Of a stretch of DNA of 64,000 nt, positions 1,300 to 16,996 are shown in pieces. Source of the stretch: Gemmobacter lanyuensis. Lineage in GTDB: Bacteria > Pseudomonadota > Alphaproteobacteria > Rhodobacterales > Rhodobacteraceae. The notes beneath the pieces are model-generated. The model was given only the letters and a program-made list of their open reading frames with translations. It ran no database searches and was not told the origin of the DNA. The stretch lies in the NCBI RefSeq assembly GCF_014652355.1, contig NZ_BMYQ01000009.1, positions 1 to 64,000 of the forward strand, given 5' to 3'. The stretch's first letter is position 1; each line of letters opens with the position of its first letter. The position numbers were made by a program, and so were the translations under genes.

Positions 1300-1336
1300 A
1301 ATAAGGCTTACTTATCATTTAATAAATACAGATAAC
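1300..1336 (+). promoter_or_regulatory. Predicted LysR-type operator upstream of glmS
   Basis: AATAAG (1300-1305), 5 bases, then CTTATC (1311-1316) form a palindrome containing the T-N11-A signature of LysR-type regulator boxes. A third half-site, GATAAC, follows after 14 bases (1331-1336) and ends 64 bases before the glmS ATG. The same arrangement stands in front of the mesaconase gene at 9201-9236. The AT-rich stretch stands out sharply from its GC-rich surroundings. The likely binder is the LysR regulator at 6570-7517. Confidence 0.7.
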
Positions 1337-1399
1337 TCTTTTTGACCCTTAAGGCGCCCTCGGATTATCCCGCCTTATCCACGCAAGGGAGGAATCGCG

Positions 1400-1879
1400 A
1401 TGGACGAAGCCGCGCGCAGCTACAAGATCGTTCTGGGGGTGATCGGGGCAGACTGCCACGCGGTCGGCAACCGCATCCTGACCGCTGTGTTGACGCGCGG
1501 CGGGATCGAGGTGGTCAACCTTGGCGTCATGGTCAGCCAGGAAGAATTCATCGAGGCCGCGATTGCCGAGGATGCGGGGGCGATCCTCGTGTCGTCGATC
1601 TACGGTCATGGTGAACTGGATTGTCAGAATTTCCGCGCCCGCTGCGAGGAACGCGGTCTGGGCGACATCGTCCTTTATGTCGGCGGCAACCTGGTGATCG
1701 GCAAACAGGATTTCGCGACCGTCGAGGCCCGTTTCCGCGAGATGGGTTTTGACCGCGTCTTCCCGCCCTCGGTCGATCTGGAGCAGGTGATCGGCCTGCT
1801 GCGTGCCGATATCGACGCGCGCCGCCCGATGGCGCTGGGGCACAACTCGGGGCGCTTTGTCGTCGAAGCCCGAGCGTAA
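1400..1879 (+). CDS. glmS: Glutamate mutase (methylaspartate mutase) sigma subunit, cobalamin-binding
   Basis: This 159-residue protein is the B12-binding subunit of glutamate mutase, which rearranges L-glutamate to (2S,3S)-3-methylaspartate. The base-off/His-on cobalamin motif DxHxxG is D18-C-H20-A-V-G23, so H20 is the expected cobalt ligand. The LVSS..YGHGE strand (63-72) and GGN turn (95-97) are further family landmarks. It is slightly longer than the clostridial protein (about 137 residues). The ATG at 1400 follows AAGGGAGG. It opens a five-gene operon with glmE 14 bases downstream. The predicted LysR-type operator lies 64 bases ahead of the start. Confidence 0.93.
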
Positions 1880-1893
1880 GGGGGGGGGAAGCG

Positions 1894-3342
1894 ATGACCG
1901 AGATCGAAAACCGCATGCTGTCGGACGCCACCTTTCAGGCCGAACGGGCCGAGGTTCTGAAAACATGGCCCAGTGGCGGCACGGTCGATTTTGACGCGGC
2001 CGTGGCGGTGCAGGCGGCGCTGCCGCCCGAAAAACGCTTTGCCCTTGCGCTGGCCGAGGCCGATGCCGAGGGGCGCACCCTGCTGCAGCCTCGCGCCGGG
2101 GTGGCGCTGATCCGCGAACACGAGGCGCTGCTGAACGGCCTGTCGCCCTATTGCGATGTGCTGCCCACCACGATCGACGCCTATACCCGCCACAACCGCT
2201 ATGCCGAGGCGCAAGAGGGGATAGACCGGTCGCGTGCGGCGGGCACATCGCTTCTGAACGGGTTTCCGGCGGTCAATCACGGGGTCGATGGCTGCCGCCG
2301 TCTGGTGGATGCGTTGTCAAAACCCGTGCAGGTGCGCCACGGCACGCCCGATGCGCGGCTTCTGGCGGAAATCACGCTCGCGGCAGGGTTTTCCAGCTTT
2401 GAGGGGGGCGGGATTTCCTACAACATCCCCTATGCCAAACATGTGCCGCTGGAACGGTCGATCCGCCACTGGCAGTATTGCGACCGTCTGGTCGGCCGCT
2501 TTGAAGAGGCGGGGATCCGCATCAACCGCGAACCCTTTGGCCCGCTGACCGGCACGCTGGTTCCGCCCTTCGTCAGCCATGTCGTCGCCATCGTCGAAGG
2601 CCTGCTTGCGCTGGAGCAGGGCGTGCGCTGCCTGACGCTGGGCTATGGGCAGGCGGGCAATCTGGCGCAGGACATCGCGGCACTGCGGTCGCTTCGGCGG
2701 TTGGCGAACCATTATTTCCTGAATGCGGGCTTTACGGATTACAAGCTGACCACGGTTTTCCATCAATGGATGGGCGGCTTCCCCGAAGATGAGGCGCAGG
2801 CCACGGCGGTCATTTGTCTGGGCGCGCTGGTCGCGCGGCAGGCGCGGGCCACCAAGATCATCGTGAAAACCCCGCATGAGGCCGCGGGCGTCCCGACGCT
2901 TGAGGCCAATCAGGCCGGGCTGAAGGCCACGCGGCAGATGGTCAACATGATTTCGGACCAGAACCGGGTCGACAGCCCCGACATCCAGACCGAAATTGAC
3001 GTGATCGAGGCCGAAGTCCATGCCGTGATGCGCGAAATCCTGCGGCTTGGCCGGGGCGATGTGGCCCGCGGCATCGTGCAGGCCTTTGCCTCGGGCGTGA
3101 TGGATGTGCCCTTTGCCCCGGCGCGGGCCAATCTGGGCAAGCTCACCCCGGTGCGCGACAACTTTGGCGCCATCCGCCTGTTTGACGCGGGCCATGTGCC
3201 GCTGCCTGATGATGTGCTGGCCTTCCACCGCGACAAGATCGCCGAACGCGCAAGGGCCGAACGGCGCGAGCCATCGTTCAACATGGTGGTTGATGACGTG
3301 CGGGCCATTTCGGCCAGCAAGCTTGTCGGCCGCCCCGCCTGA
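1894..3342 (+). CDS. glmE: Glutamate mutase epsilon subunit (catalytic TIM barrel)
   Basis: At 482 residues it is nearly identical in length to the clostridial catalytic subunit (483). Substrate-binding arginines are present at R67 (QPRAG), R99 (TIDAYTR) and R148 (VRHGTPD), and the glutamate at E170 (FEGGG). These match positions known for glutamate carboxylate binding and catalysis to within one residue. It pairs with GlmS to form the adenosylcobalamin-dependent mutase. No GlmL reactivase gene lies between glmS and glmE, unlike many anaerobes. The stop is followed by a 27-base gap to mal, so co-transcription is very likely. Confidence 0.95.
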   Translation: MTEIENRMLSDATFQAERAEVLKTWPSGGTVDFDAAVAVQAALPPEKRFALALAEADAEGRTLLQPRAGVALIREHEALLNGLSPYCDVLPTTIDAYTRHNRYAEAQEGIDRSRAAGTSLLNGFPAVNHGVDGCRRLVDALSKPVQVRHGTPDARLLAEITLAAGFSSFEGGGISYNIPYAKHVPLERSIRHWQYCDRLVGRFEEAGIRINREPFGPLTGTLVPPFVSHVVAIVEGLLALEQGVRCLTLGYGQAGNLAQDIAALRSLRRLANHYFLNAGFTDYKLTTVFHQWMGGFPEDEAQATAVICLGALVARQARATKIIVKTPHEAAGVPTLEANQAGLKATRQMVNMISDQNRVDSPDIQTEIDVIEAEVHAVMREILRLGRGDVARGIVQAFASGVMDVPFAPARANLGKLTPVRDNFGAIRLFDAGHVPLPDDVLAFHRDKIAERARAERREPSFNMVVDDVRAISASKLVGRPA

Positions 3343-3369: not shown

Positions 3370-4605
3370 ATGAAAATCAAGAATGTCCACCTCGCCCCCG
3401 GCTATTCGGCCTTCTATTTCGATGATCAGGCCGCCATCAAGGCGGGCGCCCGGCAGGACAGTTTCGTCTATACCGGCGGCACATTGACCCCCGGCTTTGA
3501 TCAGGTGCGCCAATGCGGCGAAAGCATCTCGGTCATTCTGGAGCTGGAGGACGGCCAGCTGGCCGAGGGCGATTGCGCCGCGGTGCAATATTCCGGCGCG
3601 GCGGGGCGCGACCCGCTGTTCACCGCGGCCCGTTTCATCCCCGAAATGCAGGCCACGCTGGTCCCCTGGCTGATCGGCCGCGATGTCAGCCGCTTTCGCG
3701 ACAATGCCGAGGCGCTGGAGGCCCTGCCCGCCCCCCTGCATACCGCGATCCGCTATGGGCTGAGCCAGGCACTGTTGGAGGCGACCGCCCGTGCAACAGG
3801 GCAACAGAAATATCAGGTGGTGGCCGATGAATGGGGCCTGCCCCGCGACCCGGCGCCGCTTGCGCTCTTTGGGCAAAGCGGGGATGACCGCTATGCCGCC
3901 GTCGACAAGATGATCCTCAAGCAGGTGGCGGCCCTGCCCCACGGGCTGATCAACAATGTGCCGCAAAAGCTCGGCGAAACGGGGGGTAAGCTTGCGGAAT
4001 ATGTGTCCTGGCTTTGCCATCGCATCCGCAGCCTGCGCCGCGATCCTGCCTATCAGCCGGTGCTGCACATCGATGTCTATGGCACGGTCGGGCAGATCTT
4101 CGACAATGATCCCCAGCGTATCGCGGAGTATCTGACCACGCTGGAAAAGCGGGCCGAGGGGTTCACGCTTTACATCGAAGGCCCAGCCGATGCCGGATCG
4201 AAAGAGGGGCAGATCGCGCTTCTTGCCGCGATCAAGGCCGCGCTGGCCGCCAAGGGCAGCCATGTGCGGATCGTGGCGGATGAATGGTGCAATACCTATC
4301 AGGACGTCGAAGATTTCGTCGCCGCCCGTTGCTGCGACATGGTCCAGATCAAGACGCCCGATCTGGGCAGCCTGCACAACACCATCAACGCGGTCCTGCA
4401 CTGCAAGGCCAATGGGGTCGAGGCCTATCAGGGCGGCACCTGCAACGAGACCGACATCTCGGCGCGCGCCTGCCTGCATGCCGCCATGGCCACACGGCCT
4501 GAACGGGTGCTGGTCAAACCCGGCATGGGCTTTGACGAAGGCATGACCATCGTCGCCAATGAAATGAACCGCATCCTCGCGGTGGCCGCGCGCAAGGTGG
4601 CATGA
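3370..4605 (+). CDS. mal: Methylaspartate ammonia-lyase
   Basis: This 411-residue enolase-superfamily enzyme removes ammonia from 3-methylaspartate to give mesaconate. All known active-site residues align with a constant offset of three from the Citrobacter amalonaticus enzyme: H191, metal ligands D235 (HIDVYG), E270 (YIEGP) and D304 (ADEW), and the base K328 (QIKTPD). That makes the assignment very firm. Its ATG is preceded only by a weak Shine-Dalgarno. The stop overlaps the start of the CoA-transferase gene by four bases (ATGA), indicating translational coupling. Confidence 0.96.
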   Translation: MKIKNVHLAPGYSAFYFDDQAAIKAGARQDSFVYTGGTLTPGFDQVRQCGESISVILELEDGQLAEGDCAAVQYSGAAGRDPLFTAARFIPEMQATLVPWLIGRDVSRFRDNAEALEALPAPLHTAIRYGLSQALLEATARATGQQKYQVVADEWGLPRDPAPLALFGQSGDDRYAAVDKMILKQVAALPHGLINNVPQKLGETGGKLAEYVSWLCHRIRSLRRDPAYQPVLHIDVYGTVGQIFDNDPQRIAEYLTTLEKRAEGFTLYIEGPADAGSKEGQIALLAAIKAALAAKGSHVRIVADEWCNTYQDVEDFVAARCCDMVQIKTPDLGSLHNTINAVLHCKANGVEAYQGGTCNETDISARACLHAAMATRPERVLVKPGMGFDEGMTIVANEMNRILAVAARKVA

Positions 4606-5747
4606 TGCAGACCGGTTTCAAACCCTATGAGGGGCTTCTCGTCGTCTCGCTGGAACAGGCCGTGGCGGCACCGCTGGCCTCGTGCCACTTTGCCGAAGGC
4701 GGGGCGCGGGTGATCAAGATCGAACGCGACGGGGTGGGCGATTTCGCCCGCGCCTATGACAGCGCGGTCAAGGGTGCGGCCTCTTATTTCGTCTGGGCCA
4801 ACCACGGCAAAGAAAGCCTCTGCCTGGACATCAAGGCGCCAGAGGATGCGGCCCTGCTGCATCGGCTGCTGGAAAAGGCGGATATCTTCATCCAGAATCT
4901 CGCACCCGGGGCGGTCGAACGGGCGGGCTTCGGGTCTGACGTGCTGCGGGCCCGCCATCCCCGGCTGATCACCTGCGACATCACCGGTTACGGCGACAGT
5001 GGTGATTATCGCGACATGAAAGCCTATGATTTTCTGGTGCAATGCGAAAGCGGGCTGGTCGCGGTGAATGGCGCCCCTGGGCATCCGGGGCGGATCGGTG
5101 TTTCGGTCTGCGACATCGGGGCCAGCATGAACGCCATCATCGGGCTGCAAAAGGCGCTGATCGCACGCGGGATCACCGGCAAGGGCAGTGGCGTCCAGGT
5201 CAGCCTGTTCGATACGGCAGCCGACTGGATGACTGTCCCGCTGATGCATAGCGATTATGCCGGAAAGGCCCCCCAGCCGGTGGGGCTGCATCACCCTTCG
5301 ATCGCGCCCTATGGCGGCTTTGCCACTGCCGATGGCGAGATGCTGGCGATCTCGATCCAGAATGAACGCGAATGGGCCAATCTCTGCACCCAGGTCTTTG
5401 GGCGGCCCGAACTGATCACCGATCCGCTGTTTTGCAGCGCGGCCGCGCGCGTCCGCAACCGGCGCGACACCGACGCGCTTGTCGCGGCCTATTTCGCCGC
5501 GCATAGCCGAGCGGAGCTGGAAAAGCGTCTGCGCGCCGCGGCCATCGCCTATGGGGCAGTCAATTCGGTGGCAACCTTTGCCCGACATCCGCAGCTGCGC
5601 CGTGTGCCCGTCACCCTGTCCGACGGGCAAGAGGCCGCGCTTGTCGGCCGACCGACCCGGCACAGCTTTGATGCAGACTGCCCGCGCTTTGGCCGTGTCC
5701 CGGCTTTGGGCGAACATAGCGCCGCCATCCGGGCCGAATTCGCATGA
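4602..5747 (+). CDS. Class III (CaiB/BaiF-family) CoA-transferase, probably for citramalate or mesaconate
   Basis: The 381-residue protein has the family III CoA-transferase fold. The catalytic aspartate is D143 in KAYDFLVQCESGL, equivalent to D169 of formyl-CoA transferase. Such enzymes move CoA from a donor such as succinyl-CoA to a carboxylic acid. Placed between a mesaconate-forming enzyme and a CitE-like lyase, the expected product is citramalyl-CoA, with mesaconyl-CoA as the alternative. It overlaps the gene on each side by four bases. Family assignment is firm; acceptor acid is inferred from context. Confidence 0.88.
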   Translation: MMQTGFKPYEGLLVVSLEQAVAAPLASCHFAEGGARVIKIERDGVGDFARAYDSAVKGAASYFVWANHGKESLCLDIKAPEDAALLHRLLEKADIFIQNLAPGAVERAGFGSDVLRARHPRLITCDITGYGDSGDYRDMKAYDFLVQCESGLVAVNGAPGHPGRIGVSVCDIGASMNAIIGLQKALIARGITGKGSGVQVSLFDTAADWMTVPLMHSDYAGKAPQPVGLHHPSIAPYGGFATADGEMLAISIQNEREWANLCTQVFGRPELITDPLFCSAAARVRNRRDTDALVAAYFAAHSRAELEKRLRAAAIAYGAVNSVATFARHPQLRRVPVTLSDGQEAALVGRPTRHSFDADCPRFGRVPALGEHSAAIRAEFA

Positions 5748-6613
5748 CACCGGGGCGCAGCTATCTGTTCACGCCCGCGCATCAACCGCGCCTGCTGGCC
5801 CGCGCCCATACGCGCGGCGCCGACGTGGTGCTGCTGGATCTGGAAGACAGCGTGCCTCTGCCTGAAAAGGCGGCGGCCCGCGCGGGCCTTGCCGCGGCAG
5901 TGGCGGGGCTGGTCGCCCATGGGGCAAGGGTGGCAGTGCGGGTCAATGCACCGCTTGGCCTCTGCATCCGCGATATCGAGGCCGCCTGCCTGCCCGGTGT
6001 CGAGGCGGTGATGGTCCCCAAGGCGACCTCCGCGGGCCAGATCACCGCTTTGGCCGCACATCTGCGCGACAGCCTGCACAGTGCGGCCCTGCCCGCTGAC
6101 CAGATCGCCATCATCGCGCTGGTCGAAAGTGCCGCCGGATTGCAGGCCGCGGCCGCAATTGCGCGGGCCCCGCAGGTTGCGGCGCTGGCCTTCGGCCCCG
6201 AGGATTTCAGCGCCGATTGCGGGCTGGTTCCCGGCCCGGATACGCTCGCCGTTCCGGCCCAGGCGCTGGTTCTGGCCGCAAGGGCGGCCGGGATCGGGGT
6301 TCTGGGCCTGCCTGACAGCCTTGCCGAAGTGGTTGACATCGATCGATTTGCCACCGCCGCAGGGCTGGCACGGCGGATGGGGTTTGATGGGGTGCTCTGC
6401 ATCCATCCCGCGCAGGTCGCGGCGGTGAACGCAGCCTTTGCCCTCAGCGAGGCAGACCTGCTTCAGGCGCAGCAGATCGTGCAGGCCGCGGAAGCGGCAG
6501 CGGCAACGGGCGCCGGGGCGATCCTGTTGAACGGGCGCATGATCGACCCCCCGGTGGTGGCGCGCGCCCTCAGGCTTCTGCGCCAAAATCAGGGCCAAAC
6601 AGCCCCTGCATGA
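5744..6613 (+). CDS. HpcH/HpaI (CitE-like) CoA-ester lyase, probable citramalyl-CoA lyase
   Basis: The 289-residue protein belongs to the CitE/malyl-CoA lyase family. Visible landmarks are the LDLEDSVP strand (D32-L-E-D), an Arg in RVNAP, the metal-binding glutamate in ALVESAAGL and the AFGPEDF loop. It should cleave citramalyl-CoA to acetyl-CoA and pyruvate, ending the pathway. A beta-methylmalyl-CoA lyase role is the alternative. The gene starts within the end of the CoA-transferase gene. Its last 44 bases overlap the 3' end of the convergent LysR gene, so the two transcripts are mutually antisense there. Confidence 0.85.
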   Translation: MTPGRSYLFTPAHQPRLLARAHTRGADVVLLDLEDSVPLPEKAAARAGLAAAVAGLVAHGARVAVRVNAPLGLCIRDIEAACLPGVEAVMVPKATSAGQITALAAHLRDSLHSAALPADQIAIIALVESAAGLQAAAAIARAPQVAALAFGPEDFSADCGLVPGPDTLAVPAQALVLAARAAGIGVLGLPDSLAEVVDIDRFATAAGLARRMGFDGVLCIHPAQVAAVNAAFALSEADLLQAQQIVQAAEAAAATGAGAILLNGRMIDPPVVARALRLLRQNQGQTAPA

Positions 6614-7517
6614 TCGCAGGCCCCTCGGTCCGGACGAAATCGACAAACTGCCGTGCGGCGGGGCCCGGGGGACGGCGGCTCAGATGCAGGACATACCAGT
6701 CGCGCAGCTGTGGCATGCCTTCGACCCGCAGCACGGCCAGCTTCTGCGCCTGACGCTCCAGCGCGATGGTATGGGCGGAAATGAAGGCCAGCGCCATATT
6801 GGCCATGACCGATTGCTTGATATTGGCATTGCTGTCCATTTCCTGCGCGCGCGGCAGGGGCAGGTCGGCCGCGCGGAAGAAATGTTCATGCACCATCCGG
6901 GTCCCCGACCCCGGCTCTCGCACCAGAAACGGCATATGTACCAGATCCCCCCGGCGAATGCGACGCGCACGCGCCAGCGGGTGATCGGGGTGGCTGATCA
7001 GCACATAGGGGTGCTTGGCGAATTGGTGGGCCGTCACCTCGACCCGGCTGGGCGGGCGCCCCATGAGCGCCACATCCGCCCGGCCCGCCTCAAGCGCGGC
7101 AATCACCCCTTCACGGTTGGCGATGCTGATCTGAAGATCGGCCTCGGGGTGACGTTTGCGGAATTCCTGCATCAGCTGCGGCCCGAAGTTCCGCGCGGTT
7201 GACACCATCGCCACACGCACCTGGGTGTCGATGCGCCCCTGCAGCGCCTCGACCACCTGCACCGCTTCGTGCAGGGTTTCGACCATCCGCGCCGCATAGG
7301 GCACAAGGGCCGTCGCCACCTCGGTTGGGCGGACGGACCGCCCCTCCTTTTCAAAGAGCGCGGCGCCCAGACATTCGCTCAGTCGGCTCATCTGCATGGA
7401 AACGGCTGGCGGGGTCAGGGAAAGCTTTTCCGCGGCGCGCAGAAAGCTGCGGCTTTCGACGGCGGCCAGAAAGATCTGCATCTGCCGCAGTGTGATCTTG
7501 TCGCCCGGATCGTCCAC
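6570..7517 (-). CDS. LysR-family transcriptional regulator of the methylaspartate cluster
   Basis: The 315-residue protein has an N-terminal winged HTH (about residues 9-68; the LTLRQ-like opening is ITLRQMQIFLAAVE) and a substrate-binding domain (about 95-300) resembling the CbbR branch. The start is GTG at 7517 with GGAGGGG a few bases upstream. It sits between the lyase operon (+) and the mesaconase gene, reading in the same direction as the mesaconase from 54 bases downstream of its stop, so the two are probably co-transcribed. It is the natural candidate to bind the paired T-N11-A boxes at 1300-1336 and 9201-9236. The inducer may be mesaconate, methylaspartate or a CoA ester; that is inference. 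Confidence 0.9.
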   Translation of the reverse strand: MDDPGDKITLRQMQIFLAAVESRSFLRAAEKLSLTPPAVSMQMSRLSECLGAALFEKEGRSVRPTEVATALVPYAARMVETLHEAVQVVEALQGRIDTQVRVAMVSTARNFGPQLMQEFRKRHPEADLQISIANREGVIAALEAGRADVALMGRPPSRVEVTAHQFAKHPYVLISHPDHPLARARRIRRGDLVHMPFLVREPGSGTRMVHEHFFRAADLPLPRAQEMDSNANIKQSVMANMALAFISAHTIALERQAQKLAVLRVEGMPQLRDWYVLHLSRRPPGPAARQFVDFVRTEGPAIMQGLFGPDFGAEA

Positions 7518-7571: not shown

Positions 7572-9137
7572 TCAATCGGCCAGCCGTGGCAGCCGGGTAA
7601 AGAAGTCATTGCCCTTGTCGTCGATGATGACAAAGGCCGGAAAATCCTGCACGCGGATGCGATAGACCGCCTCCATCCCGAACTCGGGATAGTCGATCTG
7701 TTCCACGCTGCGGATCACATCACGCCCCAGAACCGCCGCGGCCCCCCCGACCGACCCGAGATAGAACCCCCCGTGGCGCGCACAGCTTTGCACCACACCG
7801 GGCGCACGGTTGCCCTTGGCGATCATCACCCGCGAGGCCCCCTGCGCCTGCAGGTCGGGGATGTAGGGGTCCATGCGCGCCGCTGTCGTCGGACCGAACG
7901 ACCCCGAAGCATGCCCCGCCGGGGTGCGCGCCGGTCCGGCATAATAAATGGGGTGGTCTTTCACATAGTCGGGCAGCGGCAGCCCAGCGGCCATGCGGCG
8001 GGCCAGTTCAGCATGCACCAGATCGCGCGCGACGATCATGGTGCCCGACAGACGCACCGGGGTTGAAACCCCGAGGGTCGAGAGTGTGGCGCAAATCGCC
8101 TCCATCGGCTGATCCAGATCCACCGCCAAGGCGGCGGGCGGCACTGCAACCTCGGGCAGAAAGCGGGCGGGGTCGCGTTCAAGCGCCTCGAGCCAGACAC
8201 CCTCGGCGTCGATCCGGCCACGGATCTGCCGATCTGCGGAACAGCTGACCCCCATCCCGACCGGCAGGCTGCCACCATGGCGCGGCAGGCGGATCACACG
8301 CACATCATGGCAGAAATACTTGCCGCCGAACTGCGCCCCCAGCCCCATCTGCCGCGTCAGGCGGAGGATCTGGTCTTCCAGACCGCGGTCACGGAAAGGG
8401 CGGCCGGCGCTATCGCCGCTGTCAGGCAGGTCATCCAGCGCATGGGCCGAAGCCAGCTTGACGGTCTTGAGACAATGTTCCGCCGAAAGCCCCCCGACGA
8501 CAATGGCCAGGTGATAGGGCGGGCAGGCCGTAGTGCCCAGCGTGCGGATCTTTTCATCCAGAAAGGCCAGCAGCCGGTCAGGTTCCAAAAGCCGACGGGT
8601 TTCCTGGAAGAGAAAGGTCTTGTTCGCGGACCCGCCCCCTTTGGCCATGAACAAAAGATCCAGCGCCGCCCCTTCAGTGGCCTCGATCTCGATCTGGGCC
8701 GGCAGATTGGTGCCGGTGTTGCGTTCCTCATACATGGTCAGGGCGGCCATCTGCGAAAAGCGCAGGTTGCGCCCGGCCCAGGTGCTGCGGATGCCCGTCT
8801 CGATCGCGTCGCGCAGCCCACCCTGCACCAGCAGGTTCTGGCCTTTCTTGCCTGAAACGATCGCGGTGCCGGTATCCTGACAGCTGGGGAACGCACCTTC
8901 GGCAGCGATCACAGCGTTCTTGAGCAGTTCAAGTGCCACGAAACGGTCGTTTGCGGTGGCCTCGGGGTCATCGAGGATAGCCCGCAATTGCGCCAGATGG
9001 CCTGGCCGCAGCAGATGCGAGACATCGGCGAAGGCCTCGGCGGTCAGGGCCGTCAGGCTTTCGGCCGGCAGATCCAGAAAGGATTGCCCCGCGACATCCA
9101 CGACCCGCGGCTTTTCGATGGCCAGTTTCCGAAACAC
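7572..9137 (-). CDS. Class I fumarase-type hydratase, probable mesaconase
   Basis: The 521-residue protein is a class I (4Fe-4S) fumarase. The three cluster cysteines are C86 (PSCQDTG), C205 (TTACPP) and C299 (GVSCSAD). Their spacing of 119 and 94 residues is the same as C105/C224/C318 of E. coli FumA. In this cluster the expected reaction is hydration of mesaconate to (S)-citramalate, as known for FumD-type and promiscuous class I enzymes, although fumarase activity is probable too. The start is GTG at 9137, with a G-run and AA just upstream. Its own copy of the LysR-type operator ends 64 bases before the start. Confidence 0.9.
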
Positions 9138-9200
9138 AGCTTCCCCCCCCTGTCCGGTTTGCCACTGGCTAGCGGCGGCGACAGTGAAAGGTCAAGATTT

Positions 9201-9236
9201 CTTATTTTTTGAATAAACAGATAAGATAAACTTATC
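9201..9236 (-). promoter_or_regulatory. Predicted LysR-type operator upstream of the mesaconase gene
   Basis: Read on the minus strand this is GATAAG, 5 bases, CTTATC (9236-9220; a perfect 6+6 palindrome with T-N11-A), then 13 bases and AATAAG (9206-9201). The third half-site ends 64 bases before the GTG at 9137. Half-sites, order and distance mirror the operator in front of glmS. The remainder of the 306-bp gap 9138-9443 shows no other recognisable element. Confidence 0.7.
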
Positions 9237-9443: not shown

Positions 9444-9827
9444 ATGACGATGCAGTCCTTGGGGCTTTCAGGGCAATTGCGACAGGCGGATGCGGCGGCT
9501 TTGGCCGAACAGCTGCGCGGCCTGCTGGACGCCGCAGATGATAGTGGTGCTGTCGATCTGGGCCTGTCCGATGTGACCGCGCTGGAATTCGGCCCTCTGC
9601 AGGTTCTGGTCTGCGCGGCGGCCGAGGCCCGCAAACGCGGACTGAATTTCCGCGTGACCGCACCGGCAGATGGGCCGATCCGAAACGCCCTGACGGTCCA
9701 TGCCCTTCATGACGCCCTGACCATCTCCCCGGCCGATACGGCGCAGGATGCGCCCGACGCCGATCCCGCAGATGACCCGAAATCCGCCGCGTCCCGCGGC
9801 CGTCGCCGCCCCGCGGCCAAATCCTGA
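9444..9827 (+). CDS. STAS-domain protein heading the chemosensory operon
   Basis: This 127-residue protein has a single STAS (anti-sigma antagonist) domain over about residues 5-95 and a basic, Ala/Pro-rich tail. The phosphorylatable Ser of SpoIIAA-type antagonists is absent: the usual DSSGL loop reads EFGPL (48-52). It is therefore unlikely to be switched by a serine kinase. It is the first gene of the che operon, 7 bases ahead of cheY. STAS proteins in this position are seen in some bacterial chemosensory clusters, but the role here is not established. The ATG at 9444 follows GGGGAG. Confidence 0.75.
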   Translation: MTMQSLGLSGQLRQADAAALAEQLRGLLDAADDSGAVDLGLSDVTALEFGPLQVLVCAAAEARKRGLNFRVTAPADGPIRNALTVHALHDALTISPADTAQDAPDADPADDPKSAASRGRRRPAAKS

Positions 9828-9834
9828 GGATGAC

Positions 9835-10200
9835 ATGAGCAAGACGATTTTGACTGTGGATGACAGCCCCTCTGTGCGGCGCATGATTGCCATGACGCTG
9901 CAGGACGCGGGCTATAGCGTCATCGAAGCCGTGGATGGCGAGGACGGCCTGTCCAAAGCAACCAGCGCCCGGTTTGATGCGATCATCACTGACCAGAACA
10001 TGCCCAATCTCGACGGGATCGGCATGATCCGTGCACTGCGTCAACACCCGAACGGGCAAGGCATCCCGATCGTGGTGCTGTCGACGGATTCCGAAGACTC
10101 GCTGAAGCAGCAGGCGCGCGAAGCCGGGGCCCTTGGCTGGATGGTCAAGCCCTTCACGCAGGACAAGCTGCTGGCCGTGGTGAAAAAGGTGCTTGGCTGA
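9835..10200 (+). CDS. cheY: CheY single-domain response regulator
   Basis: The 121-residue receiver carries the acidic pair D9-D10, phosphoacceptor D53 (IITDQNMP), T84 and K105 (MVKPF), so it is fully competent for phosphorylation. The start at 9835 was chosen because GAGGATGAC lies ahead and the conserved MSKTILTVDD begins here. Its stop overlaps the CheA start by one base (TGATG). It is the likely target of CheA and of the DxxxQ protein encoded at the end of the operon. Whether it acts on flagella is unknown because no motility gene is in the window. Confidence 0.92.
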   Translation: MSKTILTVDDSPSVRRMIAMTLQDAGYSVIEAVDGEDGLSKATSARFDAIITDQNMPNLDGIGMIRALRQHPNGQGIPIVVLSTDSEDSLKQQAREAGALGWMVKPFTQDKLLAVVKKVLG

Positions 10201-12236
10201 TGAACGATGACATGGCGTCAATTTTCCGGGAAGAACTGCGTGATCTTCTGGAAAGCCTCGAACGGGGTCTGATGGACCTCAAGTCCCGGCCCGAGGATGC
10301 CGGGCTGGTGAATCAGGTCTTCCGGGACCTGCACACAGTGAAGGGCAGCGGCGCCATGTTCGGGTTCTCCGACCTTGCGGCCTTCATCCATGCGTTTGAA
10401 ACCGCATTCGACCGCGTCCGGTCTGGCAAGGTGCCGGTGACGCCGGACCTGATCCGCCTCGGCCTTTCGGCACGGGATGAAATTCCCGGTCTGGTCGATG
10501 GCACACCCGACCCCGAGGGTCGTCGCGACGGCATCCTGTCGGCGCTTCAGGTTCTGACATCGGGCGAGGTTGCGGCCCCGCCCCCGGCGACAGCGGCGCC
10601 TGCGGCCACCGAGGCGGCGGCGCCTTCAGCCCCGTCGCGATTGACCTTCCGGCTGACAGGGGCGGCGCTGGCGCTGGGATCGCGGCCGGAACTTCTGCTG
10701 AATGAACTGCGCGAACTGGGCGCCCAGAACATCAGCGCCGATCTGACCCGCCTGCCCGAACTGGCGGGCCTTGATGTCGATGCCTGCCATGTAGGCTGGC
10801 ACATGGACCTGCCCCCCGCCGTGTCGCGCGGACAGGTCGAGGATGTCTTCATGTTTGCGGATGCGGAATGGTCGCTCGAGACCGCCGCACCCGAGCCTTC
10901 CGCATCAGGGCTGCCTGCCAATGATGATGCGGAAGACGCCGCCCCGGTTGTGGCTCCCCAGGCCGAGGGGGTTGCCTCTGTGGCCCCTGTGGCCGGGGCG
11001 GCGTCCCCCGTTGTCCGGCGCGATGCGCCCCCGGCAGCTGCCCCCGCCGCGGCAGAGGCTGCCGCCACTGTCCGGGTGCCGGCGGAACGTCTGGATGCAC
11101 TGATGGATTCGGTGGGTGAACTGGTGACGGTCGAGGCACGCCTGACCGAACTGGCCCGCCAAAGCCGCGACCCCGCGCTCATGGCCACGGCCGAACAGGT
11201 GACGCGCCTGGCCGGGCGGCTGCGTGATGCGGCCATGACCATGCGGATGGTGCCGCTGCGGTCACTTGTGGCGCGGTTCCGGCGGTTGATTCACGGGCTG
11301 TCGGATACGTTGGGCAAGCCGGTGAACTTCGTCGTGATCGGTGAAGAAACCGAGCTGGACAAGACCGTGATCGAGAAGCTGGCCGATCCGCTCGTGCATA
11401 TCCTGCGCAACGCCATCGACCATGGCATGGAACTGCCCGAGGGCCGCGCCGCTGCCGGCAAGGAACCCGAGGGCACCATCGAGCTCTCGGCGGCCCATGC
11501 GGGTGGCGAGGTATTGATCCGCGTGCGTGATGACGGGCGGGGCATGAACCCCGAGGTGATCCGCGCCAAGGCCATCGAACGCGGCCTGATCACCGCCGAG
11601 GCCGTGCTGACGGAAAGCCAGATCTTCACACTTGTCTTCGAGCCGGGTTTTTCGACCGCCGAGGCGGTGACGGAACTGTCGGGCCGCGGGGTCGGCATGG
11701 ATGTGGTCCGCCGCACCATCGAAGGCCTGCGCGGGCGGATCGACATCGAGTCGGCCTTTGGCAAGGGCACCACGGTGACGCTGCGCCTGCCGCTGACGCT
11801 GGCCATCATCGAGGGACTTTTGGTCGAGGTCGCGGGCGAACGCTATACCCTGCCCATGTCCTCGGTGCAGGAAATCGTCGAACTGCCGGCTGACAAGCTC
11901 AAACCCAGCCGATCGGGCGATTTCCTCGATATCCGCGGGCATTTCGTTCCGTTCCTGCGGCTGCGCGGCCTGTTCAACTGCGACGGCATCGCGCCGTCCG
12001 AACAGAATGTCGTCATCCTGCAATCGGGCGAAGGCCGTGTGGGTGTCGTGGTGGACCGCATCATCGGCACCAACCAGACCGTGATCAAACAGATGTCCAA
12101 ACTGCACCGGCGTGCGCGCTGCATTTCGGGGGCCACGATCCTTGGCGATGGCTCGGTCGCGCTGATCGTGGACGTGCCCCAGCTGGTGTCATCGGGCCGG
12201 GCGCAGACCGAAGGTGGAAAGGAGGCCGCTGCATGA
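10200..12236 (+). CDS. cheA: Chemotaxis histidine kinase CheA
   Basis: The 678-residue protein has an Hpt (P1) domain with H45 in LHTVKGSG. A variable Ala/Pro-rich middle (about 120-290) contains a small folded segment that may be a P2-like domain. The P3 dimerisation helices (RVPAERLDALMDSVGELV) follow, then the ATPase with N-box LVHILRNAIDHG and G-boxes DDGRGMN and GRGVGMDVV, and a C-terminal CheW-like P5 domain. All kinase motifs are intact. The stop overlaps cheW by four bases. Confidence 0.95.
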   Translation: MNDDMASIFREELRDLLESLERGLMDLKSRPEDAGLVNQVFRDLHTVKGSGAMFGFSDLAAFIHAFETAFDRVRSGKVPVTPDLIRLGLSARDEIPGLVDGTPDPEGRRDGILSALQVLTSGEVAAPPPATAAPAATEAAAPSAPSRLTFRLTGAALALGSRPELLLNELRELGAQNISADLTRLPELAGLDVDACHVGWHMDLPPAVSRGQVEDVFMFADAEWSLETAAPEPSASGLPANDDAEDAAPVVAPQAEGVASVAPVAGAASPVVRRDAPPAAAPAAAEAAATVRVPAERLDALMDSVGELVTVEARLTELARQSRDPALMATAEQVTRLAGRLRDAAMTMRMVPLRSLVARFRRLIHGLSDTLGKPVNFVVIGEETELDKTVIEKLADPLVHILRNAIDHGMELPEGRAAAGKEPEGTIELSAAHAGGEVLIRVRDDGRGMNPEVIRAKAIERGLITAEAVLTESQIFTLVFEPGFSTAEAVTELSGRGVGMDVVRRTIEGLRGRIDIESAFGKGTTVTLRLPLTLAIIEGLLVEVAGERYTLPMSSVQEIVELPADKLKPSRSGDFLDIRGHFVPFLRLRGLFNCDGIAPSEQNVVILQSGEGRVGVVVDRIIGTNQTVIKQMSKLHRRARCISGATILGDGSVALIVDVPQLVSSGRAQTEGGKEAAA

Positions 12237-12724
12237 ATGTCCATGACCTGAACGCTGCCCGCAGTGTGACCCTTGTCACCATGTCGATCGGGCCGCAAAT
12301 GCTGGCGATTCCCGCCACCCAGCTGCGCGAGATCATTGATCCGCTGCCCATGACGCGGGTTCCCGGCGCGGGTGCCTTTGCCCCCTGGGTGCTGAACGTG
12401 CGGGGCACGGTGGTGCCCCTGGCCGATCTTCGCATTCCGCTCGGCATTACCGATCCGGGCCCCGACGACCGGCCGGAAGATGCCCGCCGCTTCATGGTGA
12501 TCGAGGTGGAAATCGACGGGGACAAGGCCACGATGGCCATCACGGCAGACATGGTACACGAGGTCGTCACCATTCCCCTGACCCGCATCGAACCCGTTCC
12601 CGCCACGATGCATTGGCCCGCCGATTACCTGCGCGGGCTGTTCAAAGGGAGCGACGGCTTTGTCCTGCTTCCCGACCTGTCCGCAATTTTCTCTGCCATG
12701 GCGCAGCGCCCCAGTGCGGCGTAA
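12233..12724 (+). CDS. cheW: Coupling protein CheW (first copy)
   Basis: The 163-residue protein is a single CheW domain with the family landmarks IPATQLREIIDPLPMTRVPGA and the NVRGTVVPLADLR strand. It links CheA to the receptor. It overlaps cheA by four bases and sits 15 bases before the MCP gene. A second, different CheW is encoded after the MCP, so the array may contain two coupling proteins of different affinity. Confidence 0.93.
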   Translation: MNVHDLNAARSVTLVTMSIGPQMLAIPATQLREIIDPLPMTRVPGAGAFAPWVLNVRGTVVPLADLRIPLGITDPGPDDRPEDARRFMVIEVEIDGDKATMAITADMVHEVVTIPLTRIEPVPATMHWPADYLRGLFKGSDGFVLLPDLSAIFSAMAQRPSAA

Positions 12725-12739
12725 CCGAGGGATCTGAAC

Positions 12740-14452
12740 ATGAAACTGACCATCAAAGCGAAACTCGCCGCAACCTTCCTGTTCATTTTCGCATTGTCGG
12801 GCGTTGCCCTTTATGTGGCGTTCCTCAATCTCAAGACCAGCAACGACACGATGCAGCACCTCATTGCCGAGGACGTGCAGGAGGTGCTGCTGGTCGAAGA
12901 CCTGATGACCCAGGAACTTCTGATCCAGATGCTGTCGCGCGAAGCGTTGATTTCCGGCTCGGTCTTCGATCCGGCGCGCGTGCCCCGCCTGAAAGCCGAA
13001 ATCACCCAGGCCCACGGCAAGATCGACAGCGATATGGAAAGCCTGCGCGCCTCGATGACCAAGGACGACATGTACCTTCTCGACTCCTTCAAGAAGTCGC
13101 ACGAGGAAACTGAAGAGCTGCTTGCAGAGGTCATGAAGCTTGATGCGGGCGGCAATGGCGATCAGGCCAATGACCTGCTGTTGTCCAAGGGCCGCATGGC
13201 CTTTGCCAAGACCTTCAGCACCGCCAAGGCCCTGCGCGGGGCTGTCGGGGACGATATGGAAGTCGCCGTCCGTGACGCCAACGACGCCTTCTTGGACACG
13301 CAGAAAACCCTGCTTGTCCTGATGGGCGCCACCTATGTCCTGTCGACCATCGTTGCGGCGGTGCTGATCCGCTCGATCTCGAAACGGCTCAATGCCACGG
13401 TGGAGCTTGCCCGTTCGGTGTCGGAGGGTGACCTGCGCAAGACCATCAAGGTCCAGGGCAGCGACGAGATTTCCAACCTGCAGACCACCGTCAACGAAAT
13501 GGTGACCCGCCTGCGCGACATCGTGGCCAGCGTCACCGTGTCGGTCCGCAATGTGGCCAATGGCGCTACGCAAATGGCGGCCACCTCGGAAGAGCTGTCG
13601 CAGGGCGCATCCGAACAGGCCTCCTCGACCGAAGAAGCCTCGGCCTCGGTTGAGGAAATGGCGGCCAATATCAAGCAAAGCGCCGAAAACGCGCTGGCGA
13701 CCGAAAAGATGGCCACGAAATCCGCGGAAGAGGCACGCAACAGCGGTCGCGCCGTGCATGAGGCCGTCACCGCCATGCAGACCATCGCCGAACGCATCAT
13801 GATCGTGCAGGAAATCGCCCGGCAGACCGACCTTCTGGCGCTGAACGCCGCCGTCGAAGCGGCCCGCGCCGGGGAACATGGTCGCGGTTTTGCGGTGGTT
13901 GCGGCCGAAGTCCGCAAGCTGGCCGAACGCAGCCAGACCGCCGCCGCGGAAATCTCGGCGCTGTCGGGATCGACCGTCCGCACCGCAGCCAGCGCCGGCG
14001 ACATGCTGCAAGGGCTGGTTCCGGCGATCGAAAAGACCTCGGCCCTCGTCACCGAAATCACCGTCGCCTCGCGCGAACTTTCGACCGGGTCGGCGCAGAT
14101 CAGCCTTTCGATCCAGCAGTTGGACCGCGTGACGCAGGAAAACACCTCGGCATCGGAACAGCTTTCGGCCAGCGCTGTCGAACTGGCAAGCCTTGCCGAC
14201 GAACTGTCTGAGACGGTGTCCTTCTTCAAGGTCGATGCCGTCGCCACGGACGAGGCCGCAACCGTCATGGCCGAAGCGCACAAGGCCCACAAGCACGCAG
14301 CACCCGCCCCCCGTGCAGTGCAGCCGGCAAAGGCCAAGGGCGCGACCGTATCGCAGAGCGTGTCGGACGGCGGCTTCGACTTCGATCTTGGTCCCGACAA
14401 TACCGATGCCGACGCCCTGGATGCCCGCTTCAAACGCCGCGAAAGCGCCTGA
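12740..14452 (+). CDS. Methyl-accepting chemotaxis protein
   Basis: The 570-residue transmembrane receptor has TM1 (about 8-30), an external four-helix-bundle-like sensor (31-189), TM2 (190-210), HAMP (211-263) and a cytoplasmic signalling domain. The hairpin tip at 358-390 is canonical ([21 protein letters not shown], with E and R contacts). No C-terminal NWETF-type pentapeptide for CheR/CheB docking is present. It is the only receptor in the operon and is flanked by two cheW genes, which suggests a dedicated, self-contained sensory pathway. The ligand cannot be read from sequence. Confidence 0.94.
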
Positions 14453-14466
14453 GAGGAGGGCCCCCC

Positions 14467-15012
14467 ATGACCACGATGACCGACGTTGTCACCTTTACCG
14501 TCGAGCGGGCACTCTATGGCGTGCCGGTTGATCGGGTACGCGAAATCCTCGACAAGCGCCCGATCGCGCCGATGCCCAATGCACCTGCCTATCTGCTGGG
14601 GATCATTGACCTGCGCGGGGACAATATCCCGGTCGTCGATCTGCGCATCCTTCTCGGCCTGCCCCAGGCCGAGGACACCGCCCAGACGCGCATCCTGGTC
14701 GCCCTGCTGACCGATGGGCGCCGCGAAGCGATCATCGGGCTTCGGACCGACAAGGTGATCGAAGTCACGCGTCTGGATGAAGATGTGCTGCGCCCGCTTG
14801 GCGAGGCCGAAATGCTGCGCTGGCAAGGGGCCACCATTGCCGGGATCGGGCGTCGCAACGGTGAGGTGGTCAGCGTCATCGACCTCGACAATCTGTTCGA
14901 GGGCGTGCCCCTTGGGGCCGGGCGCCGCCCCCACCCCACCCCCGAGGGGGCTGATGCCCTGCACGGTGAAACCCCTGTGACGGATGACCGCGTCGCCGAA
15001 GCCAGCCATTGA
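14467..15012 (+). CDS. cheW: Coupling protein CheW (second copy)
   Basis: The 181-residue CheW domain protein has the family landmarks YGVPVDRVREILDKRPI and GIIDLRGDNIPVVDLR, and a charged C-terminal extension (about 155-181). The ATG follows GAGGAGG. It ends on the first base of the cheR ATG. It differs from the first CheW in length and sequence, so it is not a recent duplicate. Confidence 0.92.
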   Translation: MTTMTDVVTFTVERALYGVPVDRVREILDKRPIAPMPNAPAYLLGIIDLRGDNIPVVDLRILLGLPQAEDTAQTRILVALLTDGRREAIIGLRTDKVIEVTRLDEDVLRPLGEAEMLRWQGATIAGIGRRNGEVVSVIDLDNLFEGVPLGAGRRPHPTPEGADALHGETPVTDDRVAEASH

Positions 15013-15872
15013 TGGACAGACCCCAGATGCAGACCGTCGGCACATCGCAGGGCACGGCAAGTGACCGCTTCCGTGATCTGATCCGCTCTCTCACCGGGAT
15101 CAACCTGCCTCCGGGCAAGGTGCCGATGATCGAACAGCGCTTGCGCCGTCGCGTGCTGGCGCATGAGCTGCCCGATACCGAGGCCTACCTGCGCAAGCTT
15201 TTGGAAGGGGCGCTGAAGGAAGACGAGCTGCGCATCGTGATCGACCTGATCACCACGAATACCACCAGCTTCTTCCGCGAGTCGGACCATTTCACCTATC
15301 TGCGCGACCACATCCTGCCCGAACATCTGACGAAATCGGCCCCGAACCGCGCCCGGCTCAAGGTCTGGAGCGCGGCCAGTTCCGAAGGGGCCGAGGCCTT
15401 CACCATCGCCATGGTCCTGGCCGAGGCGCAGCGCAGCGGCCGTGCCTTCGACTGGGCGGTTCTGGGCACCGACATCTCGATCCGCATTCTCGAAAAGGCG
15501 CAATCCGCCGTTTACGACGTGGACCAGCTGCAGACCGTGCCGTCCGATCTGGCCCGCCGTTACTTTCTGTATTCCGACGACCCGGCCCTTGCCCGCAAGG
15601 CCCGCGTCATCCCCGATCTTCGGCGCCGCGTGCAATTCCGGCGCCTGAACCTGATGGACAAGACCTATCCCGTCGACCGCGACGTGAACGTCATCTTTCT
15701 GCGCAATGTGCTGATCTATTTCGACGCGAACGACAAGGCCGGCGTGATCAAGCGCATGCACGAACACCTGAGCCCCGGCGGTTACCTGATCGTGGGACAT
15801 GCCGAAAGCATGGTGGTGCGCTGCGAGGGTCTGGTCCAGATCCGACCGACGATTTTCCGGAGGGTGAATTGA
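15012..15872 (+). CDS. cheR: Chemotaxis protein methyltransferase CheR
   Basis: The 286-residue protein has the N-terminal CheR helical domain (about 15-70) and a SAM-binding Rossmann domain. The TNTTSFFRESDHF motif and the late FLRNVLIYFD motif are standard. The SAM loop is unusual: where CheR normally reads a GEEPY-type sequence, this one has SSEGAEAFT near residue 120. The ATG at 15012 overlaps the cheW stop by one base; an in-frame TTG at 15009 is possible but less likely. It would methylate the adjacent MCP. Confidence 0.92.
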   Translation: MDRPQMQTVGTSQGTASDRFRDLIRSLTGINLPPGKVPMIEQRLRRRVLAHELPDTEAYLRKLLEGALKEDELRIVIDLITTNTTSFFRESDHFTYLRDHILPEHLTKSAPNRARLKVWSAASSEGAEAFTIAMVLAEAQRSGRAFDWAVLGTDISIRILEKAQSAVYDVDQLQTVPSDLARRYFLYSDDPALARKARVIPDLRRRVQFRRLNLMDKTYPVDRDVNVIFLRNVLIYFDANDKAGVIKRMHEHLSPGGYLIVGHAESMVVRCEGLVQIRPTIFRRVN

Positions 15873-16996
15873 TGTCAGCCCAAGCAACTGACCCGATCAA
15901 TGTTCTGGTGGTGGATGATTCGACATCGTCCCGCGTGATGCTGCGGCGGATCATCGAAAGCGATCCCAGTCTGCAGGTGCAGGCGATGGCGCAGGATGCC
16001 TATTCCGCCGCACGCCAGATGAAGGTCGCGCTGCCGGACGTGATCCTGCTGGATCTGGAAATGCCGGGGATGGATGGCATGACCTTCTTGCGCAAGATCA
16101 TGGAACAGCGCCCCATGCCGGTGGTGATCTGCTCGTCCCTGACGGAAACCGGATCAGAGCGCAGCCTTGAGGCGCTTGAGGCCGGGGCAGTGGATGTGAT
16201 CCTCAAGCCTTCACCGACCGATGAAGCCAGCCGCCAGGAAGCCACGATGCGGATCTGCGACGCCCTGCATGCCGCCGCGCAGTCCCGCGGCAAAGGGCGG
16301 CGTCCGCAGCCGCGCGTCACCCCGCCGCCGCTGATCCCCACACCAAAGCTGACGGCGGACGAGATTCTGCCGCCGCCCAACACGCTGAAGACCCTTCCCC
16401 TGACGGAACCGATCATCTGTATCGGTGCCTCAACCGGCGGGACCGAGGCCCTGCGCGAGGTGCTGTGCGCCCTCCCCCCGGATGCGCCCGGTATCGTGGT
16501 GGTGCAGCACATGCCCAAGGGCTTTACTGCGGCATTTGCCAAACGGCTCGACAGTCTTGCGGCCATCCAGATCAGCGAGGCCCGCGACGGGATGAGCGTG
16601 GGCCGCGGCGAGGCCATCATCGCGGCGGGCGACACCCACATGCTGCTGCGTCGCGCCAATAACGGCTATCGGGTGCAGGTCGTCGACGGCCCCTCGGTCA
16701 GCCGCCATCGGCCTTCGGTCGATGTGCTGTTCCGGTCGGGCGCCACGGCCGCCGGGCGGAACACGTTGGGCATCATCATGACCGGCATGGGCGATGATGG
16801 CGCGCGCTGCCTGGGCGAGATCAAGGCCGCGGGTGGCATGACGATTGCACAGGACGAGGCAAGCTGTGTGGTCTACGGGATGCCGCGCGAGGCCGTCCGC
16901 ATGGGACATGCCATGCAGACGTTGCCGCTCGATCGCATCGCGGCTGCCATCATGGGCTTTGCAAGACAACACCGACAGGCAGGAAGTGGCGTATGA
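15872..16996 (+). CDS. cheB: Protein-glutamate methylesterase CheB
   Basis: The 374-residue protein has an N-terminal receiver domain (phosphoacceptor D61 in LLDLEMPGMDG) and a C-terminal methylesterase. The catalytic triad is visible as S187 (IGASTGGT), H213 (VQHMPKG) and D309 (MGDDGA). It removes methyl groups from the MCP after phosphorylation by CheA. The ATG at 15872 shares one base with the cheR stop and follows GGAGGG. Its own stop overlaps the next gene by four bases, so translation is coupled through to the end of the operon. Confidence 0.94.
   Translation: MSAQATDPINVLVVDDSTSSRVMLRRIIESDPSLQVQAMAQDAYSAARQMKVALPDVILLDLEMPGMDGMTFLRKIMEQRPMPVVICSSLTETGSERSLEALEAGAVDVILKPSPTDEASRQEATMRICDALHAAAQSRGKGRRPQPRVTPPPLIPTPKLTADEILPPPNTLKTLPLTEPIICIGASTGGTEALREVLCALPPDAPGIVVVQHMPKGFTAAFAKRLDSLAAIQISEARDGMSVGRGEAIIAAGDTHMLLRRANNGYRVQVVDGPSVSRHRPSVDVLFRSGATAAGRNTLGIIMTGMGDDGARCLGEIKAAGGMTIAQDEASCVVYGMPREAVRMGHAMQTLPLDRIAAAIMGFARQHRQAGSGV

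Follow-up and report, generated by a model that had tools for sequence, protein, structure and literature searches.

The window analysed here, a 64-kb stretch of DNA from Gemmobacter lanyuensis, carries a cluster of methylaspartate pathway genes, with a lysR gene inside the cluster and similar dyad-bearing motifs at its two ends, one ahead of glmS and one ahead of the mesaconase gene (mes). The arrangement raises the question of whether both motifs are operators of a single regulon and, if so, whether the neighbouring LysR-type transcriptional regulator (LTTR) is the protein that binds them. The locus would provide a precise candidate regulon and operator for an aerobic route by which glutamate is broken down and which has been little studied, and perhaps also for histidine breakdown, judging by the hut genes that lie beside the cluster in Gemmobacter fulvus. 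A search of the accessible literature, from which subscription journals were mostly excluded, found no study of LysR control of a methylaspartate cluster. On the sequence comparisons described below, we consider it very likely that both sites serve the LysR protein encoded at 6570-7517 as operators of a single regulon.

The methylaspartate cluster

The products of glmS, glmE and mal all score above the curated cut-offs for GlmS, GlmE and methylaspartate ammonia-lyase (Table 1), which marks the locus as a methylaspartate pathway cluster. The mesaconase, CoA-transferase and lyase functions are probable assignments made from domains and context; the mesaconase gene scores above the cut-off of TIGR00723 (157.7 versus 145.15), whereas it falls below that of the full-length class I fumarase models (679.1 versus 1094). 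Because the gap between them is only 54 bases, mes and lysR probably form one unit, and the mes operator would therefore probably control lysR too, an autoregulation that we infer from this arrangement. The initial annotation had described the lysR gene as lying between the two sites; it does, but it also stands directly behind mes, probably sharing its promoter. The convergent 3' ends of the citE-type gene and lysR share 44 bases (6570-6613), and overlaps are also present in L036 (loci are designated L plus a number), G. fulvus and Ensifer.

Table 1. Coordinates of the cluster genes and of the elements of the two candidate operators in the window
Feature	Position	Strand	Remarks
glmS operator, dyad 1 (predicted recognition site)	1300..1316	+	AATAAG-GCTTA-CTTATC; T-N11-A / TAA-N7-TTA
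glmS operator, half-site 3	1331..1336	+	GATAAC
TTGACC at glmS, predicted -35 box and probable half-site 4	1342..1347	+	Reverse complement GGTCAA
glmS promoter, predicted weak -10 box TTATCC	1365..1370	+	17 bp 3' of TTGACC
glmS, methylaspartate (glutamate) mutase subunit S	1400..1879	+	TIGR01501, 195.9 bits (cut-off 135.8)
glmE, methylaspartate mutase subunit E	1894..3342	+	TIGR01503, 690.5 bits (cut-off 390.1)
mal, methylaspartate ammonia-lyase	3370..4605	+	TIGR01502, 544.9 bits (cut-off 286.15)
Class III CoA-transferase, probably citramalate CoA-transferase (context)	4602..5747	+	PF02515; scores with the listed NCBIfam models all below cut-off
CitE/HpcH-type lyase, probably citramalyl-CoA lyase (context)	5744..6613	+	PF03328; scores with the listed NCBIfam models all below cut-off
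lysR, LysR-type regulator of the CbbR clade, proposed to bind both operators	6570..7517	-	PF00126, PF03466; 54-base gap to mes
mes, mesaconase (activity assigned from context; class I fumarase type), leading gene of the probable mes-lysR operon	7572..9137	-	PF05681, PF05683
mes promoter, predicted weak -10 box CTAGCC	9167..9172	-	17 bp 3' of TTGACC
TTGACC at mes, predicted -35 box and probable half-site 4	9190..9195	-	
mes operator, half-site 3	9201..9206	-	AATAAG; dyad 1 to half-site 3, 13 bp
mes operator, dyad 1	9220..9236	-	GATAAG-TTTAT-CTTATC

Two sites with a common layout

The glmS-side site reads AATAAG-N5-CTTATC-N14-GATAAC (1300-1336, forward strand), and the mesaconase-side site GATAAG-N5-CTTATC-N13-AATAAG (9236-9201, reverse strand). 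Both contain the T-N11-A dyad of LysR operators, and both dyads also follow the TNA-N7-TNA half-site rule of the CbbR type, in the form TAA-N7-TTA. The positions, strands and letters reported for the two sites in the initial annotation were correct, and the T-N11-A that it saw in each was borne out by the sequence check; the operators are not identical, as it had called them, but differ in letters and share a layout instead. The dyad ATAAG-N5-CTTAT matches twice in the window versus not once in any of 100 dinucleotide shuffles; in the 4,034,309-base genome it occurs at three places, two of them the window sites, against none for the backwards-read control pattern. At both sites, TTGACC stands exactly 5 bp past half-site 3.

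At either end, 63 bases separate the last base of half-site 3 from the start codon (ATG at 1400, GTG at 9137), which gives the 64-position distance that had been pointed out, but this distance is not conserved in relatives: across the accepted operators, half-site 3 and the beginning of the gene (or of the tblastn match) are between 56 and 131 apart. We therefore dropped the equal distance as a meaningful feature; it is incidental, and what is conserved is the spacing within the operator and from there to TTGACY.

The regulator and its co-occurrence with the pathway

Both LTTR domains are found above cut-off, PF00126 (HTH_1) with 68.1 bits and PF03466 (LysR substrate) with 153.2 bits. By sequence, the regulator belongs to the CbbR side of the LysR family, with a score of 264.4 bits against the CbbR equivalog NF045990 (cut-off 450). 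Within the genome, the RuBisCO superfamily (PF00016) is represented by a single match, whose 280-aa fragment is OiaX-like (562.9 bits, with a cut-off of 700), and the regulator is accordingly not a Calvin-cycle CbbR; the sub-cut-off score, together with the lack of RuBisCO genes beyond this match, rules out CbbR itself. The solved structures nearest by sequence are 5y2v (7.2e-44), deposited as a Rubisco operon transcriptional regulator and which we take to be CcmR/NdhR, and that of CmpR, 5z49 (4.9e-35).

Across the genomes of the family, the LysR tracks the methylaspartate pathway. A methylaspartate ammonia-lyase above cut-off is present in 5 of 394 family genomes (26 have any match), and a LysR orthologue of at least 64% identity in six, including all five of the former; further LysR matches at E 1e-50 or better among the 394 are of 43% identity or less. 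The sixth genome, G200, is outside the 26 with any methylaspartate ammonia-lyase match. Its lysR (63-64% identical) faces an isolated glmS-like gene in convergent orientation, and the only strong operator match in 18 kb (L170) precedes that gene, scoring 22.8 with the next best at 11.3. The GlmS-like protein (L170 9966-10451, reverse strand) is 40% identical and is without the cobalamin motif DxHxxG; it might be a sensor partner of the regulator.

Conservation of the layout in relatives

A scan of named genome contigs yielded at least 80 loci. The initial annotation had held that related clusters lacking the motif at both places would count against the regulon. The exact word ATAAG-N5-CTTAT is indeed absent from the alphaproteobacterial loci among L032-L115, where the one match is in L101 (a MAG named uncultured Arenicella), but a degenerate layout is kept: a dyad, GRTAAN-N5-NTTAYC, followed after 14 bp (13 at the window mes site) by GATAAN and, 5 bp further on, by TTGACY. 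An exact-word operator search can thus falsely suggest loss in relatives while the half-site geometry stays.

A model of this layout was trained on six operators from three close genomes (the window, L033 and L036) and applied to 15 held-out regions. The upstream regions of L037-L043, L079, L087 and L098 had been looked at by eye before the scorer was written; they were outside the training set. Nine of the held-out regions (two each from L038, L039 and L041, and one each from L040, L043 and L087) belong to loci whose LysR has the recognition helix PPAVSMQM (PPAISMQM in L040), referred to as PPA-type, and all nine have the layout, eight with P = 0.002, the lowest value that 500 shuffles allow, and the mes side of L038 with P = 0.006. 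In the PPA-helix relatives, the same half-site geometry, with drifted letters, precedes both glmS and the mesaconase gene (or stands in the interval between the latter and lysR), which upholds the original proposal of putative LysR-type operators of one regulon at both pathway ends. Fits are poorer with other helices: L037 gave P = 0.002 and, on the mes side, 0.040, and L042 0.002 and, on the mes side, 0.024 (ASA-type helix), and the glmS sides of L079 and L098 (QPA-type helix, LysR 46-48% identical) have no significant site (P = 0.38 and 0.13). Scanning whole loci on both strands placed the best match in the glmS promoter region for 8 of 10 held-out loci, in one of them (L087) on the opposite strand; the two exceptions are L079 and L098, the best match of L098 lying in the lysR-glmS interval and facing lysR (17.2).

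Additional regions were fetched after the model had been fixed, from an Ensifer adhaerens plasmid (L131), a Rhizobium sullae plasmid (L132) and the G200 stretch (L170), and all five have the layout (P = 0.001 in four, 0.003 in one). Scored on the scale of the controls described below, they reach 26.9 and 17.5 (L131), 26.1 and 16.1 (L132) and 22.8 (L170); the lower values are those of the mes-side sites, and that of L132 is no better than the top control. In these two sites, the downstream part is weak, with best spacings to a -35-like hexamer of 4 and 6. On the mes side of both Ensifer and Rhizobium, the site is flanked by lysR and by a mesaconase-type gene that is only ~30% identical and in reversed orientation. 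Where lysR stands apart from mes, the regions upstream of it gave P = 0.001 in L043 (with an irregular 15 + 4 spacing), 0.031 in L087 and 0.099 in L040, and autoregulation in this arrangement is on that account not general.

The mesaconase-type genes that stand beside lysR in L131 (13481-14983), L132 (13503-14987) and L043 (13039-14475) are ~30-32% identical to that of the window; in these loci the mesaconase gene has apparently been swapped for a distant relative.

Controls and further sites in the genome

The controls were drawn from the 69 loci that remain of L044-L115 without L079, L087 and L098, mostly from related enterobacteria. Six had no glmS match and two had glmS less than 200 bases from a contig end, leaving 61 that were scored, none with a match to this LysR in the fetched stretch (tblastn, 1e-8). 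Their glmS upstream regions score at most 16.1, versus 18.2-30.3 for the nine held-out PPA regions. Five more loci, L133 and L140-L143, whose methylaspartate ammonia-lyase is 40-47% identical, gave no match to this LysR (L133 carries a different annotated one) and do not exceed 13.3 anywhere along their length. A class-level search found the enzyme at E 1e-60 or better in 4 of 385 genomes, own genome included; the four stretches from the three further genomes have enzymes 40-44% identical and no LysR match, and served as controls only.

Scanned at a threshold of 14, the window contains the two sites, at 31.9 and 36.4, with all other matches at most 17.9 and amounting to shifted-register or opposite-strand hits to the same two places. 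In its own genome, the 14-bp layout pattern with up to three mismatches finds the glmS site with none (the mes site, with its 13-bp spacer, falls outside the pattern) and three others with three mismatches each, which is chance level because the backwards control gives two. RTAA-N7-TTAYC is not enriched genome-wide, at 14 strand-hits versus 26 for its backwards control. Ten candidate loci, at nine places in the genome, score no higher than 15.6, compared with 31.9 and 36.4 for the window sites, and we claim no extra regulon members. The genome search for more ATAAG-N5-CTTAT sites that had been recommended did find one extra place (L003 1501-1515, on contig C14), across the ATG of a LysR-type gene, but it was rejected as a regulon member; that gene is perhaps OxyR-like, and the dyad perhaps its own site.

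Anatomy of the operator

Together, 19 operators from 11 loci, the window included, consist of dyad 1, a spacer, half-site 3, 5 bp and a hexamer. In 18 operators the tabulated spacer measures 14 bp, the exception being the window mes site with 13 bp; for the mes site of L039, the scorer prefers 13 + 6, and 14 + 5 is equal by mismatches. Half-site 1 retains its core T in 19 operators and its core A in 19; for half-sites 2, 3 and 4 the corresponding numbers are 18 and 19, 19 and 19, and 17 and 19. These counts are partly circular because the sites were picked by motif; most spacer positions are much less informative than the half-sites. This contrast, of conserved T and A in the half-sites with mostly variable spacers, argues for protein contact at the half-sites. 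The fits are not uniform: dyad 1 has three mismatches in nine positions at the mes sites of L039 and L041, and half-site 4 is weak at those of L038, L131 and L132.

The hexamer after half-site 3 ends in C or T in 18 of the 19 operators. TTGAC is also the ordinary -35 consensus, and its conservation is by itself no proof of a half-site; the textbook -35 box, however, ends in A, and the C or T here speaks for one. On the other strand, TTGACC reads GGTCAA, which is near GRTMA and so gives four half-sites, with dyad centres 31 bp (30 at mes) apart. We lean towards this reading of the -35 hexamer as a fourth half-site, which has the status of an inference because TTGAC is the usual -35 word as well. 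The three half-sites originally described are all present; they are probably four, with TTGACC the likely fourth. From TTGACC-17-TTATCC at glmS, simple arithmetic would put dyad 1 at about -69 and dyad 2 at about -38.

Proposed mechanism

The best reading of the locus is, we believe with good confidence as regards the regulon, that a LysR of the CbbR clade activates the methylaspartate pathway in its aerobic form. The regulator would control glmS-glmE-mal-CoA transferase-citE on the forward strand and mes-lysR on the reverse strand and, being probably in the mes unit, would also control its own gene; the pathway would run aerobically from glutamate via methylaspartate, mesaconate and citramalate to pyruvate and acetyl-CoA. 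Both operators contain the dyad GRTAA-N7-TTAYC and, ~31 bp on (30 at mes; three helical turns), a weaker, probable dyad GATAA-N7-TGACY, whose right half would be the -35 hexamer. A LysR tetramer would place one dimer on dyad 1 (~-69) and the other on dyad 2 (~-38), and a pathway metabolite would shift the second dimer so that RNA polymerase could use an otherwise poor promoter. PMC4730206 describes LysR tetramers that hold a high-affinity site near -65 and slide between weaker sites near -35 and -10 on effector binding, and PMC2942843, in its treatment of CbbR operators, describes TNA-N7-TNA half-sites in a recognition and an activation region; the window layout appears to fit both the standard LysR model and the CbbR operator rule. 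The locus is very probably a conserved two-promoter regulon with a well-known kind of switch. Activation is the probable sign of control; as for the effector, a C5 dicarboxylate, for example mesaconate, can only be guessed at.

The sign could be the opposite, with LysR binding both sites mainly as a repressor over the -35 box and a metabolite relieving the block. The downstream part of the operator overlaps the -35 box in both window promoters, and the related CcmR is described as a repressor in PMC3401165; the -10 boxes are poor, however, as expected for activator-dependent promoters, and we regard dominant repression as unlikely. LysR proteins usually have both states, so that the two readings differ mainly in which dominates.

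Less probable still is that the shared operators are genuine but bound by a regulator encoded elsewhere, the neighbouring LysR having another job. Counting the protein itself, 36 matches to this LysR are present in the genome, but the regulator has no close paralogue there (67.5 bits for the best other versus 682.4 for itself). Against this reading, moreover, the operator co-occurs with this LysR even in G200, which lacks the pathway, and is absent from the 61 glmS promoters without it, and the poorer fits are those of loci with another helix (ASA in L037 and L042; QPA in L079 and L098). We can hardly credit that the resemblance is an accident of two AT-rich islands, or the remnant of a duplicated promoter, with no specific binder: both islands are AT-rich within GC-rich sequence, T-N11-A alone is loose and the shorter dyad pattern is not enriched genome-wide, but the exact dyad is missing from all the shuffles, and the half-sites stay while the letters between them vary across several bacterial orders.

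Comparison with known systems

Binding of both sites by the neighbouring LysR, as preferred here, has a close parallel in CbbR, a sequence relative whose operators, as characterized in PMC2942843, likewise have TNA-N7-TNA within T-N11-A; the window protein differs in its score below 450 bits and in standing in a methylaspartate cluster, in a genome with no RuBisCO beyond the OiaX-like match. CcmR and CmpR of cyanobacteria, whose solved structures are the nearest by sequence, serve another pathway; CcmR responds to alpha-ketoglutarate and NADP+, according to PMC3401165. BenM, DntR and other tetrameric LysR regulators, as described in PMC4730206, have a high-affinity site near -65, activation sites near -35 and -10 and a sliding dimer, whereas in the window a single dyad of the activation type was recognised, in which the -35 box forms the right half, and the start is a predicted one.

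The glutamate fermentation clusters of clostridia and enterobacteria share glmS, glmE, mal and, as mesaconase, a class I fumarase or its two-subunit relative with the window. They differ in regulation, a putative GntR regulator being indicated and, for enterobacteria, a putative LTTR, according to figure legends of PMC4682846; the clostridial cluster in the same source has a putative citramalate lyase, in contrast to the CoA-transferase, CitE-type lyase and LysR of the window. This LysR has no match in the enterobacterial loci that we fetched (tblastn, 1e-8).

Helix types and half-site sequence

In L037 (Leisingera) and L042, the LysR N-terminus carries the recognition helix ASAVSMQM in place of PPAVSMQM, and these are the two Rhodobacterales loci with the poorest mes-side fits and with TCAG/CTGA-like sites. 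Half-sites with TCA or TGA are not confined to these loci, however, since a minority of the PPA-type operators (L033, L043, L087, L131 and L132) have them too. A tentative and rather doubtful reading is that the regulators form an undescribed LysR clade dedicated to aerobic methylaspartate metabolism in Alphaproteobacteria and a Marinobacter genome, whose half-site specificity has shifted in one branch, from mostly GRTAA with the PPA-type helix to TCAG/CTGA-like with ASAVSMQM; only two genomes have the ASA-type helix, which tells against it, as do the PPA-type operators with TCA or TGA. If true, it would amount to a naturally occurring exchange from which the LysR recognition code could be read.

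Neighbouring genes

The glmS-glmE junction (1879-1894 in the window; likewise in L033 and L036-L042) leaves no room for glmL, the mutase reactivase. Ensifer and Rhizobium have a gene annotated as glutamate mutase L between glmS and glmE, and many other loci have a gap of ~1.4 kb there. A CMD-family gene on the reverse strand (809-1237) could be under the glmS operator, but no claim is made, because it is matched only in L036 and the duplicate L032 among the loci searched.

A set of chemotaxis-type genes adjoins the mesaconase promoter (9444-17000), with look-alikes, by eye, of STAS, response regulator, CheA, CheW, receptor, CheR and CheB genes. At the other end, the gene at 197-757, beside the cluster, is 80% identical to gfa of G. 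fulvus; the window begins at contig base 1, near this gene, and its upstream neighbours fall outside the contig. On plasmid p2 of G. fulvus (NZ_CP076363.1; L130 1-6686), hutI, hutH, hutG and hutU, which convert histidine to glutamate, lie just upstream. The gfa-like gene here and the hut genes in G. fulvus suggest that histidine may feed the pathway.
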